A stretch of 64,000 bases of DNA from Candidatus Saccharicenans sp. (GTDB lineage: Bacteria; Acidobacteriota; Aminicenantia; Aminicenantales; Saccharicenantaceae): assembly GCA_024653215.1 (NCBI GenBank), contig JANLFU010000001.1:186001-250000 (forward strand), given 5' to 3'. Below are positions 24,004 through 31,114 of this stretch, in pieces (the stretch's first letter is position 1; each line of letters starts with the position of its first letter). Made by a program: the position numbers and the translations under genes. The notes under the pieces were generated by a model that was given only the letters and a program-made list of their open reading frames with translations, had not been told where the DNA came from and did no database searches.

Positions 24004-25620
24004 ATGAGATTTTCTTTGAGGACTTCCGGGCGGCGAACGGGCCTGGCCGTTTCGCTGGCCCCGGCCGCCATGCTGGTCCTAACCCTGTTCCTGGCTGCTT
24101 CCGTCCAGGAGGAGACCCCCAGGCCCAAGCCCGGGGGAGAACTCAGGGTCAGGCCTTATGGTTCAGCTTTGAATACCGACCTGGACCCGGCCGGAAATGG
24201 CTATTCCCTGGTGGTGGCCAATCTTTACGAAGGCCTGGTCCGGCTGGACCAGAACCTGAACGTCGTTCCTGGCCTGGCTGACTACTGGTCGGTCTCTGAA
24301 AGCGGCCGAAAGGTTACCTTCTACCTCAGGAAGCAGGCTGTCTTTCATAACGGTCAGCCGGTTACCGCCTCCGACGTCAAGTTTTCGTACCAAAGGCTAT
24401 TCCAGCTGAAGAGCCGGCCTGTCTTCTACGAGTTTGCCAGCAGGATCGAGGGGGGAGAGGAATTCTGGCGGGGGGCTGCTTCCGAGGTCAGCGGGCTAAG
24501 GGTGGTGGACGATAAAGTCCTGGAGATTTACTGGAAGCAACCGGGTATCACCAATTTCTATTTCCTGGCGGCCGGCTTCGCCGGGATTCTTCCGGCCGGA
24601 CCGGTTCAGTCTCAGAAAAAAAGATTTTTTGACAGGCCGGTTGGGGCCGGGCCCTTCAAGTTCGATTACTGGCTGCGGGACAGGCGGCTTAATATTATCG
24701 GTGTCAGGCTGGCCAGGAACGATAATTATTTTACCAGGAAACCTTTCCTGGAAGCGGTCGAGGTCAGTCCCTTTTTCCAGCTGGATGATTTCTTTCAAAA
24801 CGAAATCCAGATTATTCCCTACCTTACCTTCAGGATATCCAGGGATAAGTACCAGATCCTGGAAAGCAACCTGCTCCAGCTGAATTATCTCTTCTTCAGC
24901 TGTCATCTGCCGCCCTTTGACCGGCCGGCAGTCCGCCGGGCCCTGCAGGCCTTTATTGAAAAAAGGCAGCTGGCCGGCCTGGCTTCGACCACGGCCAATT
25001 TTTGCCAGCCAATGGACAGCTATATTCCTCCTTTCCTTCCCGGTTTTATGCCTGAAGGGGCCTGGCCGGATCAGAGTCTGAGCCAGGTGCTGAAAGTCCT
25101 GGAAGATTCGGGACTTGGCCGGGTAGACAAACCCCTGGTGGTCAGGGCCTATTTCCAGGTAACCAATAAAGACCTCATCCCGAACATCTATGAGTTTTTG
25201 AGAGAGGAGCTAAAGCCGGCCGGTATAAAACTGGAGCTGAGGTCAGATTATTCGGCCGAGGAGCTGGCCAGGGACACCACCCCCTTCATCTTTTTCCTGG
25301 AGTGGAGTCCCGAACTGCCCGACCCGGAATTTATTCTCCGGCCGCTGTTTCATTCCGGCGGTTCTCCAAATCGGGAGCTATTTCATTACCGGAACCCGAA
25401 AGTTGATGAACTGCTGGAACTTCAGAAGAATGGCCTCAGCTTTGAGCGCCGGGTTAACCTCTTCCGGGAGATAGAGAAAATTCTGCAGGCCGATACCCCG
25501 GCCCTGCCTCTTTTTTTCCATAAGCAGAGGCTGGCCTATCAGCCCTACCTTAAGAACCTGAAAGCCCAGCCCCAGGGACTTCTCTGCCTGAATCTCCTTG
25601 ATGTCTGGATGGACCGATGA
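24004..25620 (+). CDS. Family 5 extracellular solute-binding protein without transporter partners
   Basis: After an N-terminal export segment (residues about 14-34, no lipobox), the protein shows the SBP_bac_5 landmarks. These are LNTDLDPAGNGYSLVVANLYEGLVR at the start of lobe one (read from 24169), YWSVSESGRKVTFYLRKQAVFHNG near residue 95, VTASDVKFSYQRL, and PVGAGPFKF in the middle. This is the peptide/nickel-type family usually feeding Dpp/Opp ABC transporters. Here no permease or ATPase follows. Instead its stop overlaps the start of a histidine kinase by 4 bp, so it may act as the ligand-binding input for that kinase. The Shine-Dalgarno is weak. Confidence 0.85.
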   Translation: MRFSLRTSGRRTGLAVSLAPAAMLVLTLFLAASVQEETPRPKPGGELRVRPYGSALNTDLDPAGNGYSLVVANLYEGLVRLDQNLNVVPGLADYWSVSESGRKVTFYLRKQAVFHNGQPVTASDVKFSYQRLFQLKSRPVFYEFASRIEGGEEFWRGAASEVSGLRVVDDKVLEIYWKQPGITNFYFLAAGFAGILPAGPVQSQKKRFFDRPVGAGPFKFDYWLRDRRLNIIGVRLARNDNYFTRKPFLEAVEVSPFFQLDDFFQNEIQIIPYLTFRISRDKYQILESNLLQLNYLFFSCHLPPFDRPAVRRALQAFIEKRQLAGLASTTANFCQPMDSYIPPFLPGFMPEGAWPDQSLSQVLKVLEDSGLGRVDKPLVVRAYFQVTNKDLIPNIYEFLREELKPAGIKLELRSDYSAEELARDTTPFIFFLEWSPELPDPEFILRPLFHSGGSPNRELFHYRNPKVDELLELQKNGLSFERRVNLFREIEKILQADTPALPLFFHKQRLAYQPYLKNLKAQPQGLLCLNLLDVWMDR

Positions 25621-27101
25621 ACAGAATTCCCAGGCCCCGAATTTCCATCTACGTCCAGCTGGTCTTCTGGACTTCGGTTATCATCCTGCTCCTGATGTTC
25701 GGGGTCCTGTATGTCATCCAGACCAGGGAAGTTAAGGCCATCTACCAGGAGAAGAGGGAGCGCGGCCTGGTTATGGTCAGGTACATTTCTGAGATGAACT
25801 TCAGGAGCCTGGTGCTCGGAGACCTGGAGTCCATAGATGAAAACATTTCGGGATTGATCAGGGAAGACCTGGCCTACATAATTTTTTACGATGCCGACAG
25901 CAAACCGGTGGTGGTCAGCCAGAGCATCGCCGACAATGCCGAGGTAATCAACCAGACCAGCTGTGCCGGCGAGGTTTCTCCGGGCGATGTCTTTTACAAT
26001 ACCATCAGGCTGGAGCGGGGCCGGAGCTTTCAGGAAGTGATGGAGGTCGAGGTTCCGGTTTTCATTCCCGGTTCTGAGAAAAAATGGGGTTCGGTTAAAA
26101 TCGGCTTGAAACTGGAAGACGTGTTTCGCCGGGTCCAGAGGACCCGGCTGGTGCTGCTGGGCTTCGGGCTGGCCGCCTTTCTGCTGACGGTGCTCGGGGC
26201 CAACCTGCTGGCCAGGAGGATTACCAGGCCCATCAGGAACCTGGTCGAGGGAACGCGGCGAATTTCCCGCGGCGATTTCAGCTACCGGATTCCGGTTATC
26301 TCCAGGGATGAAATCGGAGACCTGACCCGGAGCTTCAACCAGATGGCCGAGGAATTGCTGCGGGCCCGGGAGCAGATGGAAGAGGCTAACCGGCGCCTGC
26401 TTCAGGCCGAGAAGCTGGCCTCCATCGGCCGGCTTTCGGCCACCATCGCCCACGAAATCCGCAACCCCCTGACCTCGGTTAAGTTAAACATCCAGAAGCT
26501 GGCCGAGATATCGACCCTGGATGAGCTGGAGAGAGAACACCTGGCCATCGCCCAGGCCGGCATCGAGCAGATCGAGAAGTTCATCAAGGACCTGCTGAGC
26601 TACACCCGGGCTTCCAGCCTGCAGAAGGATTATTTTTCCCTGGCCGAGGTCCTGGACGAGTCTCTGAAATTGTTGCAGCCATCCCTCAAGGAAAAAGGGG
26701 TTGTGGTGGACAGGGACTATCAGCCGGGCCTGCCCCCGGCTTACGTTGATGCCGACCGGCTGCGCCAGGTCTTCTTAAATGTACTTCGCAACGCCTACGA
26801 GGCGGTGGACCAGGGAGGCAGGATAGAAATTTCTCTCCGGATGAACCGGGAAGAAGACTGTCCCTGTTTTGAGGTCCGGATCAGCGACGACGGCTGCGGC
26901 ATACCGGCCAAGGACCGGGAAAATATCTTTGAACCATTCTTCACCACCAAGAGTTCCGGGGCCGGCCTGGGGCTGGCCAATGCCCGCCGGATTCTGGACC
27001 AGCACGGGGGCACCATCCGGGTGGTTGATAAAGAGGGACGGGGTAGCTGTTTTCTGATCACTCTGCCCTGTCCGGAAAGCAGACAGGAGGCTCAGACATG
27101 A
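25617..27101 (+). CDS. Membrane sensor histidine kinase with HAMP domain
   Basis: Two membrane spans (residues about 14-36 and 178-200) frame a periplasmic sensor of about 140 residues that looks like a single CACHE/PAS-type domain. A HAMP linker follows, with DEIGDLTRSFNQM. Next come a dimerisation domain with phosphorylatable H279 in AHEIRNPL, and an ATPase domain with N box (NVLRNAYEAVD), G box (DDGCGIP), F box (FEPFFTT) and GAGLGLANAR. It overlaps the binding-protein gene upstream and the regulator downstream by 4 bp each, so the three form one translational unit. Confidence 0.92.
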   Translation: MNRIPRPRISIYVQLVFWTSVIILLLMFGVLYVIQTREVKAIYQEKRERGLVMVRYISEMNFRSLVLGDLESIDENISGLIREDLAYIIFYDADSKPVVVSQSIADNAEVINQTSCAGEVSPGDVFYNTIRLERGRSFQEVMEVEVPVFIPGSEKKWGSVKIGLKLEDVFRRVQRTRLVLLGFGLAAFLLTVLGANLLARRITRPIRNLVEGTRRISRGDFSYRIPVISRDEIGDLTRSFNQMAEELLRAREQMEEANRRLLQAEKLASIGRLSATIAHEIRNPLTSVKLNIQKLAEISTLDELEREHLAIAQAGIEQIEKFIKDLLSYTRASSLQKDYFSLAEVLDESLKLLQPSLKEKGVVVDRDYQPGLPPAYVDADRLRQVFLNVLRNAYEAVDQGGRIEISLRMNREEDCPCFEVRISDDGCGIPAKDRENIFEPFFTTKSSGAGLGLANARRILDQHGGTIRVVDKEGRGSCFLITLPCPESRQEAQT

Positions 27102-28462
27102 CCAGAGTTCTGGTAATAGAGGATGATTCCTTGGTCAGCCGGACCATCGCCACGCATCTCCGGAAAAAAGGCTTCGAGCTGAAACTGGCCGAGACCGGCG
27201 AGGAGGGGCTGAAGCTCTACAAAGATTTTCAACCCGACTTAACCCTGCTGGACGTCAAGCTGCCCGACATCAACGGCCTGGAGGTGCTCAGGCAGATCAG
27301 ACAGACCAGCAAGAACGCGGCCGTGGTGGTGATGACCGCTTTTGATGATATGAAAACCACGGTGGAAGCCATCAAAGCCGGGGCCTTTGAATACCTGGTA
27401 AAACCGCTCGACTACCTGGAGCTGGACCTGACCATCGACAAGGCCTTCCAGCTCAAGGCGCTGGAAGAAAAGGTCAGTTACCTGATCGAAGAAAAGCAGA
27501 AGGAATACCAGATAGACAATATCATCGGCCGTTCGCCCCAGATGCGGGAGGTCTTCAAGATGATAGGCTCGGTGGCCAATACCAGGACCAACGTCCTGAT
27601 CCAGGGAGAGAGCGGGACGGGCAAGGAGCTGGTGGCCAAGGCCATCCATTACAACAGCCCCTTCCGGGATGAGCCCTTCATCGTCATCAACTGTTCGGCC
27701 ATTTCCGATACCCTGCTGGAATCAGAGCTCTTCGGCCATGTCAAGGGAGCTTTCACCGACGCCGTCAGCGAGACCCGGGGCAAGTTTGAGATTGCCGGCA
27801 AGGGAACGCTGTTCCTGGATGAAATCGGCGATATTTCTCCCAACCTCCAGTCCAAGCTTCTCCGGGTCATTGAAACCAGGGATTTCATGAAGGTCGGGGG
27901 TGAGAAGATATTGAAGACCGAAGCCAGGATAATCGCCGCCACCAACCAGAACCTTAAGGAGCTGGTCAGCCAGGGCAGGTTCCGGGAAGACCTGTACTAC
28001 CGTCTCAAGGTGGTGGAGATAACCCTGCCGCCGCTCCGGGACAGGCGCGAGGATATTCCCGAGCTGGTGGCCTACCTGCTGGAAAAGATAAACCGGGAGC
28101 TGAAGAAAAACGTCAGGAAAGTTCCGCCCGAAGTCATGGACTACCTGGTCAACCAGCCCTGGAAGGGTAATGTCCGGGAGCTGGAGAATGCCCTGACCAG
28201 GGCCGTCATCCTGGCCAAGGGAGATGTCATTCTGAAAGAACACCTGCCGTTTGAACCGGCCCCTCAGGCCCAGGCCCAGGACAGGTTTCAACTGCCCAAG
28301 GAAATGGTGCCGCTCTGGGAAATAGAGAAGAGGTACATCCAGTATGTGCTGGAAGCCACGCGGGGCAGCAAGACCAGGGCCTGCCAGATACTGGAAATCA
28401 GCCGGCCAACCCTCGATAAAAAAATCAAGGATTACGACCTCAAGGTGGAAACCTCGGAATGA
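27098..28462 (+). CDS. Sigma-54-dependent response regulator, NtrC family
   Basis: AGGAGG lies seven bases before ATG 27098. The receiver domain has acidic EDD near residue 8, phospho-acceptor D52 (LLDVKLP) and the conserved Lys in VKPLD. The central AAA+ domain has Walker A GESGTGKE, the sigma-54 contact loop GAFTDA (a common variant of GAFTGA) and Walker B TLFLDEIGD. The C-terminal Fis-type helix-turn-helix ends TRACQILEISRPTLDKKIKD. It activates sigma-54 promoters by ATP hydrolysis. Two such promoters lie directly downstream (28586 and 30206), each with a similar inverted repeat, so they are the likely targets. Confidence 0.95.
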   Translation: MTRVLVIEDDSLVSRTIATHLRKKGFELKLAETGEEGLKLYKDFQPDLTLLDVKLPDINGLEVLRQIRQTSKNAAVVVMTAFDDMKTTVEAIKAGAFEYLVKPLDYLELDLTIDKAFQLKALEEKVSYLIEEKQKEYQIDNIIGRSPQMREVFKMIGSVANTRTNVLIQGESGTGKELVAKAIHYNSPFRDEPFIVINCSAISDTLLESELFGHVKGAFTDAVSETRGKFEIAGKGTLFLDEIGDISPNLQSKLLRVIETRDFMKVGGEKILKTEARIIAATNQNLKELVSQGRFREDLYYRLKVVEITLPPLRDRREDIPELVAYLLEKINRELKKNVRKVPPEVMDYLVNQPWKGNVRELENALTRAVILAKGDVILKEHLPFEPAPQAQAQDRFQLPKEMVPLWEIEKRYIQYVLEATRGSKTRACQILEISRPTLDKKIKDYDLKVETSE

Positions 28463-28585: not shown

Positions 28586-28601
28586 TGGCACGAAACCTGC
28601 T
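28586..28601 (+). promoter_or_regulatory. Sigma-54 promoter for the lone receiver gene
   Basis: TGGCACGAAACCTGCT has GG at 28587-28588 and GC at 28599-28600 with exactly ten bases between, matching the -24/-12 consensus except for C in place of the first T of TTGC. The start would be about 12 bases further on, and ATG 28625 follows after a short leader with AGGT. Confidence 0.75.
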
Positions 28602-28624: not shown

Positions 28625-28984
28625 ATGCTTGATAAGAGAATAGTTATCGTCGATGATGATGAATCCATAAGAAAGACCTTTTTTCTGCTGCTTTCAGATA
28701 AATACAATGTTTACCTGGCCGGGGATGCCGGGGAAGCCCTGGCTAGATTTGAAAAAGCCCGGGTTGATTTGATCATAGCCGATTTGCGGCTTCCCCAGAA
28801 AAATGGTCTTCAGATGATTGTCGATTTCAGGCAGTCGGGTTACCAGGGTCGTATCATACTCATATCTGCCTGTGCCGACCAGGTCAAGCCTGAGGACCTG
28901 GAAAAACTGGGGGTTGACCGGCTGTTTATAAAACCCCTGGACCTCAAGTTACTGACCGAAACCATCGACAGCCTGCTGGCCTGA
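28625..28984 (+). CDS. Single-domain response regulator (CheY-like receiver)
   Basis: The 119-residue protein is one receiver domain: IVIVDDDESIRK at the N-terminus, phospho-acceptor D53 in IADLRLP, a Thr/Ser position in ILISACAD and the conserved Lys in IKPLD. There is no output domain. It is transcribed from its own sigma-54 promoter directly after the NtrC-type regulator gene, so its level should depend on that system. It may act as a phosphate sink, a feedback element or a link to another kinase; none of these can be read from the sequence. Confidence 0.9.
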   Translation: MLDKRIVIVDDDESIRKTFFLLLSDKYNVYLAGDAGEALARFEKARVDLIIADLRLPQKNGLQMIVDFRQSGYQGRIILISACADQVKPEDLEKLGVDRLFIKPLDLKLLTETIDSLLA

Positions 28985-30057: not shown

Positions 30058-30205
30058 CCGGCCATCTTTTATCACTTTTCTTAAGGGCAGGTTTATTTTT
30101 TCTTCAGGCCATGTTTCCGTAAAGTATTTTTACGGCTTTTAAACTTTTTTTATGATTTTTCAGGTAATTTTCCAGTTTTTTAAGGGGAGGTCAGGTCTGG
30201 AATTC
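30058..30205 (+). other. AT-rich leader region upstream of the second sigma-54 promoter
   Basis: This 148-base stretch holds no open frame of note and is markedly richer in T-runs than its surroundings. It contains the 19-bp inverted repeat at 30117-30135, suited to an enhancer region where bent AT-rich DNA helps looping. Confidence 0.5.
30117..30135. promoter_or_regulatory. Candidate enhancer site for the NtrC-type regulator (site 2)
   Basis: CCGTAAAGTATTTTTACGG has perfect 7-bp arms around five bases and lies 71 bases upstream of the -24 GG of the promoter at 30206. Size and outer bases match site 1 at 28489-28507, also at an upstream-activator distance. Confidence 0.5.
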
Positions 30206-30222
30206 TGGCACAAATCTTGCTT
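30206..30222 (+). promoter_or_regulatory. Sigma-54 promoter, near-perfect consensus
   Basis: TGGCACAAATCTTGCTT matches TGGCAC-N5-TTGC exactly, with GG (30207-30208) and GC (30219-30220) ten bases apart. Transcription should start near 30231. It is the best sigma-54 site in the window. Confidence 0.88.
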
Positions 30223-30230
30223 ATAAATTG

Positions 30231-30510
30231 GCGGGTATAGAAAATGGCTGAAAGAAGAAGAGCAACGAGAACAAGCGATAGACAGTTCTTATACATAGAT
30301 ACCTTAGATGTTATGGGGAGGGAGATATTGAGGTTTGACGGGCTGAACAGAAAGCCAATCTCTCCCTCCCCCTTCATTTATCCACTTGGCGATGAGCGCA
30401 CCCATAAATTTATAAATGCCTCCTTTTTGCCCTTCTTTGCCCTTCTTTCCATTCCCCCTTCCTTCAATTAAACAGAGGGGTGCACGGCGGCACCCCTCTC
30501 TTTCTTTTTT
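30231..30510 (+). ncRNA. Candidate sigma-54-driven structured small RNA (about 280 nt)
   Basis: The unit is bounded by the sigma-54 promoter at 30206 and the strong terminator at 30474-30510. It contains an 11-bp perfect inverted repeat (30315-30325 with 30361-30371, GGGGAGGGAGA and its complement) enclosing a smaller GGCT/AGCC hairpin. A pyrimidine-rich tail follows, with a tandem GCCCTTCTTT repeat (30429-30448) and CCTCC (30419-30423), which is complementary to Shine-Dalgarno sequences. A 75-codon frame runs from ATG 30244 to 30471 but has no ribosome binding site, and its product looks like no protein I know. I favour a regulatory RNA. A small protein, or a leader peptide within the RNA, remains possible. 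Confidence 0.5.
30474..30510 (+). terminator. Strong rho-independent terminator
   Basis: AGAGGGGTGC (30474-30483) pairs perfectly with GCACCCCTCT (30490-30499) over a six-base loop and is followed by CTTTCTTTTTT. It ends the sigma-54-driven unit that begins near 30231; no other plus-strand gene lies directly upstream. Confidence 0.9.
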
Positions 30511-30571: not shown

Positions 30572-31114
30572 TCAGATCGGGCCCAGGAGATTCGTGATTT
30601 TTTCCAGCAGCTCGGACTGGAGTCCATTCCGGTTGGCCGGGGTAAGCTCAAAGAGCTGGGTCCCCGGACTGGACTTTATCCGTTCTATAAAGGGCGTTCC
30701 CCGCCAGGCGATGGTGGCCAGGAGGTGACCCGGAGCCGAAACCAGTCGCAGCACGATTTCCCGGAATTTTTCTGAAAGACATTCCATTTTGCCTATCTCG
30801 TCTATGACCACCAGCCTGGTTTCAGGGGTGAAGAACCTGACCGATTCCAGGAAATTTTCGAAGCGGGCCAGGTCCACCCGGTATTTACCCACCCGGTAGG
30901 GTGTCTTGAATTCAACATGGCTGAGGACGGCCCCCCGGCCATCGGGGCTCATCAATTCGAAGCCCAGCCTGGTTCCCTTTTCCCTTATCTCCCTGGTGAT
31001 AAAACCGGCAATCCCGCTCTTATCCGGCAGCCGTTCAAGGAGGCCGGCCACCAGGGTGGTTTTTCCGGACCCGGGTAGCCCCGTCACCAGGATTTTAAGT
31101 CCTTTGGCATTCAT
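30572..31114 (-). CDS. THEP1-type nucleoside-triphosphatase
   Basis: The 180-residue product has Walker A TGLPGSGKTT at residues 11-20, then GFITREIREKGTRLGFEL and the Walker B-like VVIDEIGKME, the signature of the THEP1/NTPase family. Members hydrolyse NTPs slowly in vitro; their cellular role is unclear, and some act as kinases or in nucleic-acid processing. It is a single minus-strand gene between the small-RNA unit and the aminopeptidase P gene. Confidence 0.88.
   Translation of the reverse strand: MNAKGLKILVTGLPGSGKTTLVAGLLERLPDKSGIAGFITREIREKGTRLGFELMSPDGRGAVLSHVEFKTPYRVGKYRVDLARFENFLESVRFFTPETRLVVIDEIGKMECLSEKFREIVLRLVSAPGHLLATIAWRGTPFIERIKSSPGTQLFELTPANRNGLQSELLEKITNLLGPI

Follow-up and report, generated by a model that had tools for sequence, protein, structure and literature searches.

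Qrr, GlmY, and CrcZ are sigma-54-dependent small RNAs with an activator site and a terminator, and the enterobacterial envelope-stress small RNAs MicA and RybB are sigma-E-dependent. NfeR1 (alpha-r14), which carries ultraconserved anti-Shine-Dalgarno (SD) motifs, silences ntrBC (PMC10746234), and a functional peptide has been reported for SgrS in the dual-function small RNA SgrS/SgrT (PMC4021124). Here, we describe an element at positions 30119–30510 of a 64,000-nucleotide (nt) stretch of DNA from Candidatus Saccharicenans sp. of the order Aminicenantales (assembly GCA_024653215.1, contig JANLFU010000001.1, positions 186,001–250,000), hereafter called the window. Comparison with related genomes indicates that the element is a real RNA gene under a sigma-54/two-component code and new to Rfam. 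With slightly better than even confidence, we read it as a small RNA that would be switched on via an NtrC-type regulator and sigma-54 and would act in trans by pairing through a C/U-rich block, and that also carries a near-leaderless open frame.

The conserved unit spans 30119–30510 as a whole and comprises a palindrome, promoter, stem, C/U-rich block, and terminator, all on the forward strand, as are the other features located below except the downstream NTPase gene. At its 5' end, conservation and a pattern scan placed the palindrome GTAAAGTATTTTTAC (30119–30133), the probable upstream activating sequence of an NtrC-type regulator. The sigma-54 promoter TGGCACAAATCTTGC (30206–30220), read from the sequence as TGGCAC-N5-TTGC at -24/-12, is kept in the genus. 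From the positions of the promoter and the terminator, a transcript of about 275–280 nt (30232–30510) was predicted, starting ~12 nt past the -12 element. Within it, sequence and covariation identified the 5' arm GGGGAGGGAGA (30315–30325) and the 3' arm TCTCCCTCCCC (30361–30371) of a long-range stem. The genus alignment delimited a 53-nt C/U-rich block (30417–30469) with CCUCC, two GCCCUUCUUU, and CCCCCUUCC, which is the candidate pairing region; its sequence reads GCCTCC at 30418–30423 and tandem GCCCTTCTTT at 30429–30438 and 30439–30448. An intrinsic terminator follows (30474–30510), with a 10-bp stem (30474–30483 with 30490–30499) and a T-rich tail, and is conserved across the genus copies. 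The first-pass annotation of this DNA had described the promoter, the 11-bp stem at these coordinates, the C/U-rich tail with its tandem repeat and CCTCC, and the terminator, and all of them were present in the sequence as described; the palindrome lies outside the coordinates of that annotation and is absent from it.

The same annotation had proposed a candidate new sigma-54-dependent small RNA, and an RNA gene with a sigma-54 promoter and a two-component link was borne out. In covariance-model matching, no Rfam family was found at gathering scores anywhere in the window, and sub-threshold matches to the stem were miRNA precursors only (best E 0.018). Like Qrr, GlmY, and CrcZ, the window RNA has a sigma-54 promoter, a putative activator site, and a terminator; unlike them, it has no Rfam match, belongs to a different phylum, and carries a near-leaderless frame. 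Set beside the alpha-r14/NfeR1 small RNAs of alpha-proteobacteria (PMC10746234), the window RNA is similar in its ultraconserved anti-SD C/U motif, its tie to an NtrC-type two-component system, and its variable stems around a fixed motif. The three hairpins with unpaired CCUCCUCCC given there for alpha-r14 were not found in the sequence or folds of the window RNA, which also differs in having a sigma-54-type promoter, one long stem, a C/U block, a kept frame, and targets that are only inferred.

The element was matched in 18 of the 19 genus genomes. Because the contig of the nineteenth genome (G016) ends inside the preceding ARMT1-like gene, this corresponds to all 18 testable genomes; the named carriers comprise Candidatus Saccharicenans along with further metagenome assemblies of Aminicenantes or Acidobacteriota. 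A 30-base core pattern, scanned with up to three mismatches, was found in 18 of the 94 genomes of the order, every one of them in the genus. In the genus alignment of 17 copies (the window and 16 of the 18 loci), 53 consecutive columns, corresponding to window 30417–30469, were identical in 17/17 copies, while the 5' half was strongly divergent. One copy (L035:4957–5120) is a deletion variant that has lost the stem and most of the frame and has kept the start, core, and terminator; the open frame left in it is 37 codons long. A chance feature was ruled out by the presence across the genus together with the stem shuffles, frame shuffles, and neutral simulations given below.

The palindrome and promoter form a code that extends beyond this gene. 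On both strands of the 64-kb window, strict TGGCAY-N6-TGC sites numbered just two, the RNA promoter among them, and the GTAAA-N5-TTTAC palindrome occurred in a single copy, 72 nt upstream of the RNA promoter. Across the genus, the exact palindrome and the TGGCAY-N6-TGC promoter were each present in 18/18 copies, at a distance of 60–63 nt (12 copies) or 72–74 nt (6 copies). These two spacing classes lie about one helical turn apart, which would suit a looping activator. The combined pattern (41–71-nt gap) was detected in 66 of the 142 genomes of the class, namely, 65 of the 94 in the order and 1 of the 48 others, and its reversed control gave no match in the 142 genomes. The palindrome alone was not enriched in the window's own genome (11 sites with gaps of 3–7, compared with 8 in the reversed control). 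This genome contains 10 sigma-54 activator matches, 8 of them above 200 bits, and the sigma-54 DNA-binding domain was detected in 18 of the 19 genus genomes. As in known sigma-54-dependent RNAs, both a conserved -24/-12 promoter and an enhancer-binding protein with a candidate site were found.

The likely activator is encoded upstream of the element. A sensor cluster begins with a solute-binding protein gene (SBP_bac_5, here SBP5; 24004–25620; Pfam PF00496, E 3.9e-49), followed by a histidine kinase gene with HAMP, HisKA, and HATPase domains (25617–27101) and by the gene for an NtrC-type response regulator (27098–28462; receiver, sigma-54 activator, and Fis-type helix-turn-helix domains), which its domains and synteny mark as the likely activator of the RNA. 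Next comes the single-domain response regulator RR2 (28625–28984; PF00072), which is found near the RNA in the genus and in a sister genus and is preceded by the window's second strict sigma-54 promoter (28586–28600, pattern scan). The NtrC-type regulator and a single receiver were upstream of the element in 17/17 genus loci with upstream sequence (of 18 loci); SBP5 and the kinase were also upstream in 16 of those 17, the remaining contig being too short. In loci of the genera g3 and g4 (the latter being the sister genus) and of the families f3, f4, f6, and f7, the palindrome and promoter precede an SBP5-kinase(-NtrC) operon, and the NtrC protein of these operons was 74–77% identical to that of the window where the stretch reached it. 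This arrangement fits autoregulation by the NtrC protein, and synteny and autoregulation together suggest that the palindrome is read by the neighboring NtrC protein. Ahead of RR2, promoters similar to that at 28586–28600 also occur in f4, f6, and f7 loci.

The same code was found ahead of a receiver gene (f6, L125), a TonB gene (L123), and an ECF sigma factor gene (L119). A second palindrome and promoter in the window's own genome (L098, G000:C4:43618) precedes the gene for a signal-peptide-like secreted protein of 350 residues with no Pfam match. A single DNA code, GTAAA-N5-TTTAC with a -24/-12 promoter, would connect the RNA with a sensor cluster and envelope genes in several families of an uncultured order. 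Like MicA and RybB, the window RNA appears to belong to an envelope-linked regulon made up of protein genes as well as an RNA; unlike them, it would depend on sigma-54 and an NtrC-type regulator. No paper on Aminicenantes small RNAs or Aminicenantes sigma-54 was found in the open-licence PMC literature. For a regulatory RNA with its regulon in uncultured Aminicenantes, the locus offers a comparative case with internal controls. Across the loci of the order-wide regulon (L119–L188), the printed gaps cluster near 41, 51, 62, and 71–72 nt, and the genes comprise the SBP5-kinase-NtrC operon and those for receiver, TonB, ECF sigma factor, secreted, beta-propeller, and TPR proteins.

Between the regulators and the element lies an ARMT1-like gene in all of these 17 genus loci but L031 and L034, and the genes downstream of the element vary. 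The next gene in the window, an NTPase gene (30572–31114), is oriented toward the RNA. Among the 17 other genus loci with downstream sequence, 11 show this arrangement; the remaining 6 have no NTPase gene, and other genes follow the RNA. A short, leader-like frame followed by a terminator could also be an attenuation leader of the downstream gene. Given this facing orientation, the variety of following genes, and a stop-to-stem distance that differs between the two genera, we find such a leader barely credible.

The 11-bp stem is kept in 16 of the 17 aligned copies, the exception being L035, in which the whole segment is lost. Compensatory changes in this stem, which the first-pass annotation had put forward as a check, were found. 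Both sides had changed in 5 of the 12 pairs counted, and none of 500 shuffles matched the observed percentage paired, the number of pairs changed on both sides, or the covariation score; the number of pair types was reached by 5/500 shuffles. Slid controls paired 58–74% of cells, compared with 95% for the stem. The RNAalifold consensus contained the stem (3 pairs changed on both sides), the terminator, and a small hairpin, GAG-c-GCA/TGC-CTC (30394–30422), in which the first CCUCC is partly paired. This hairpin is without covariation support because its pairs hardly vary. The fold of the window RNA was better than that of dinucleotide shuffles (z = -2.84, 2/200 as good).

A shorter RNA of the same plan was found at the matching place in 11 of 13 genomes of the sister genus g4, with the palindrome in most of them. 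Its core is ACCCTTCC(A/T)TAACCCTCCTTCTTT, and its terminator is much like that of the genus; the promoter TGGCAY-N6-TGC was present in 10/11 copies, L196 having a non-consensus -12 element, and the terminator of L189 contains masked bases. A profile of 10 g4 RNAs matched 17 of the 18 genus RNAs (best E 8.7e-5), whereas 360 shuffles gave 4 matches (best E 5.9). In the opposite direction, the genus profile matched 9 of the 10 g4 RNAs (best E 6.4e-4). In family f2, a C/U-rich RNA lies at the matching place. A pattern scan detected its core, CTCTCTTCCTTTCAG, in 12/12 genomes, each with a sigma-54 promoter ahead of it; matches outside f2 (6 genomes, all with two mismatches) were taken as chance because the reversed control gave 7. 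A receiver, ARMT1-like, or pgsB-like gene stands beside the RNA in 11 of the 12 f2 loci (exception, L212). The predicted transcripts are ~90–175 nt long in the sister genus and f2, versus about 275 nt in the window. Common descent with the f2 RNA is argued from position, as its sequence can hardly be aligned with those of the other RNAs. By these comparisons, the genus and its sister clearly have the RNA gene, and f2 probably does. With the strict promoter pattern, no such RNA was found in f4 locus L286 or in the five f6 loci whose sequence runs for 2 kb or more past the receiver gene (L279–L282 and L287); the f7 locus L284 ends just past the receiver gene.

The cores of these relatives bear on a further possibility, in which the C/U repeats or the GGA-rich stem would titrate an RNA-binding protein in a GlmY- or CrcZ-like manner. 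The tandem GCCCUUCUUU repeat and the GGA motifs in the stem are compatible with such a sponge, and strict letter conservation would suit a protein site as well as a pairing seed. However, the sister-genus and f2 cores lack the same repeat, and the GGA motifs sit in the paired stem; we regard a sponge as highly improbable.

The near-leaderless frame consists of 75 codons and a stop (30244–30471) and begins ~12 nt downstream of the predicted transcript start; it is open in all testable relatives of the two genera, and its peptide sequence drifts. The first-pass annotation had dismissed it for having no ribosome binding site. An SD sequence is indeed absent, but the dismissal did not stand, since the frame was open in all genus and sister-genus copies. 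In the genus, an open frame with an in-frame start (ATG, GTG, or TTG) 0–14 nt past the predicted transcript start was present in 17/17 copies, compared with an average of 0.08/17 in shuffles and 0/34 in the other two frames. The sister genus gave 11/11 open copies (start at 0–12 nt), compared with 1.42/11 in shuffles and 1/22 in the other frames. Kinship inflates such counts, and therefore changes were simulated along a tree of 16 genus copies. With changes taken by alignment column (425 inferred substitutions), neutral runs put an in-frame stop in 13.3–13.9 of the 16 tips, and 0/1000 runs were stop-free under either weighting. A codon-aware repeat (413 substitutions, 0 observed stops) put a stop in 12.5 of the 16 tips, again with 0/1000 stop-free runs. 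Among the eight nearest genomes, the variable part of the frame has no indels, and the leader length varies by 1–2 bases; since several distant copies begin slightly upstream, some of the indels in such copies relative to the window start codon are not multiples of three.

The frame was further compared with RR2 in 28 pairs of 8 near genomes by the proportions of synonymous (pS) and nonsynonymous (pN) differences. The frame had a pS of 0.191 and a pN of 0.168, a ratio of 0.88 (0.73 without the stem codons), whereas RR2 had a pS of 0.576 and a pN of 0.091, a ratio of 0.16. These values suggest that the amino-acid constraint on the frame is at most weak, and the pS of its variable part, 0.19 versus 0.58 in RR2, points to constraint at the RNA level. 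The fixed C-terminal part was invariant at synonymous positions too (52/54 columns). Taken together, these results point to selection for an open frame in the two genera, with the peptide hardly constrained. The first-pass annotation had set a synonymous-biased frame with loss of the stem against its RNA reading; both frame and stem were kept, and synonymous bias was hardly present. A pure non-coding RNA was ruled out in the two genera by the maintained frame and is possible in f2, and a pure protein gene is not favored given the pN/pS of 0.88. An internal TTG start behind the SD-like GGGAGGGAG is in frame in most genus copies and lost in L031 and L032, and is likewise not favored.

A small mRNA for a regulatory peptide with an active C-terminus, SIPPSFN in the genus or PDTLP in the sister genus, would account for the frame maintenance. 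Its C-terminal codons are fixed in each genus, ATT CCC stands in the same register across the genus and several g4 copies, and a weak amino-acid constraint is compatible with the ratio of 0.73 obtained without stem codons. However, the fixed part is invariant at synonymous sites as well, the g4 peptide can be as short as 6–7 residues, the stem covaries, neither a Pfam match of the product nor an SD sequence was found, and f2 lacks the frame. We consider such a peptide gene quite unlikely. The ATT CCC codons lie near the frame end (window 30450–30471), where their register is shared between the genus (SIPPSFN) and several copies of the sister genus (IPDTLP). The g4 C-terminus is PDTLP in 10/11 copies and NTLP in one, and the genus stop codon is TAA, TAG, or TGA, depending on the copy.

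That the frame is kept while the peptide drifts suggests that translation itself, rather than the product, is selected on a small RNA, which is unusual. In such a translation-gated RNA, ribosomes running over or terminating in the C/U block would be selected, and the peptide would be a by-product; ribosome occupancy would mask the pairing region or shield the RNA, which would be active when near-leaderless initiation drops. The frame is open in 28/28 copies of the two genera with a start at 0–14 nt (other frames, 1/56), the 413–425 substitutions in the 16 genus copies left no in-frame stop, an outcome seen in 0/1000 simulations, and strong amino-acid constraint is absent. The stop codon lies inside the C/U-rich block in the sister genus and directly after it in the genus, as gating would have it. 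On the other side, the frame is not kept in f2 (11 loci), where a start codon occurs within 16 nt in 3/11, and therefore translation would not be needed for the basic function in f2. We hold gating to be unlikely; if true, the RNA would combine an envelope signal, via NtrC, with the translation capacity of the cell. Like SgrS/SgrT (PMC4021124), the window RNA joins a candidate pairing RNA and an open frame on one transcript, and it differs in that the peptide drifts while the frame is kept and in that the frame overlaps the candidate pairing block.

For the favored trans-acting small RNA, the following mechanism is proposed. The RNA would be activated through the GTAAA-N5-TTTAC site and sigma-54 by the NtrC-type regulator, which is encoded by a gene ending 1.8 kb upstream. 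The C/U-rich, G-poor 3' block, displayed just before the terminator, would pair with purine-rich mRNA segments, e.g., some ribosome binding sites, and the pairing, probably with Hfq, would lower the translation of targets within a cell-envelope response. The envelope link is suggested by the genes under the same code, among them those for TonB, the ECF sigma factor, and secreted proteins; in relatives, the sensor cluster is also under this code. The RNA of the two genera also carries the near-leaderless frame, presumably translated, which ends in or just after the block. Hfq-family matches were found in 19/19 genus genomes, 11 of them above the curated cut-off, and the conserved C/U-rich motif, which in its place ahead of the terminator resembles a pairing region, is complementary to SD sequences, as in anti-SD RNAs.

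Several results weigh against this trans-acting RNA. In scans of the 19 genus genomes for long complementarity with two G-U-tolerant patterns, no genus-wide target was found besides the opposite strand of the gene itself. The first pattern matched this strand in 18 genomes and gave 26 other matches, compared with 29 for the reversed control; one of the 26 recurs in G008, G016, and G017 (an intergenic-looking hairpin) and one in G002 and G011, neither with a clear gene start. With the second pattern, other matches were about as frequent as in the control. Pairing of the block with translation starts, taken from 50 window genes called by script, averaged -17.4 kcal/mol, compared with -17.6 kcal/mol for shuffled blocks (58/100 shuffles as good), and gene interiors paired slightly better than starts (-18.4 kcal/mol; shuffled, -15.9 kcal/mol). 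In 21 loci of three clades, the RNA cores showed no preference for the start of the co-regulated secreted-protein gene from the same clade. These tests were narrow, covering long matches, 50 window genes, and one co-regulated gene family, and targets matched by short seeds may lie elsewhere. Of the trans-acting RNA in the first-pass annotation, the sigma-54/two-component RNA gene and the invariant C/U-rich 3' block thus stood, whereas pairing with ribosome binding sites was no better than in shuffles and a conserved target was not found. As for regulation, the window's own SBP5 operon is without a palindrome because the single palindrome of the window is at the RNA. In f2, the exact palindrome was present in only 5/12 copies; the g4 profile reached f2 with a best E of 0.007, and the f2 profile found 0/18 genus and 2/10 g4 RNAs. 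Against covariation of the stem, two of its five pairs changed on both sides are the outermost ones, which 5 and 9 copies leave unpaired. The covariation score of the stem (0.066) was exceeded by slid controls +2 and +3 (0.073 and 0.078), which paired 74% and 69% of cells, and the RNAalifold covariation term was nearly zero (0.01). Finally, a pure base-pairing RNA would leave the kept frame unexplained.

A purine-rich segment that matches the core's complement was seen in three genus genomes, near position 1500 of L233, L238, and L245; it lies in an intergenic-looking hairpin with arms GGGGTGAGA/TCTCACCCC and may be another RNA or a terminator. Units like L098 recur in other genus genomes and families. 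Further RNA-like units with a palindrome, promoter, and terminator were seen at L154 (f3) and L175 (f11), the latter being the only palindrome-promoter match outside the order.
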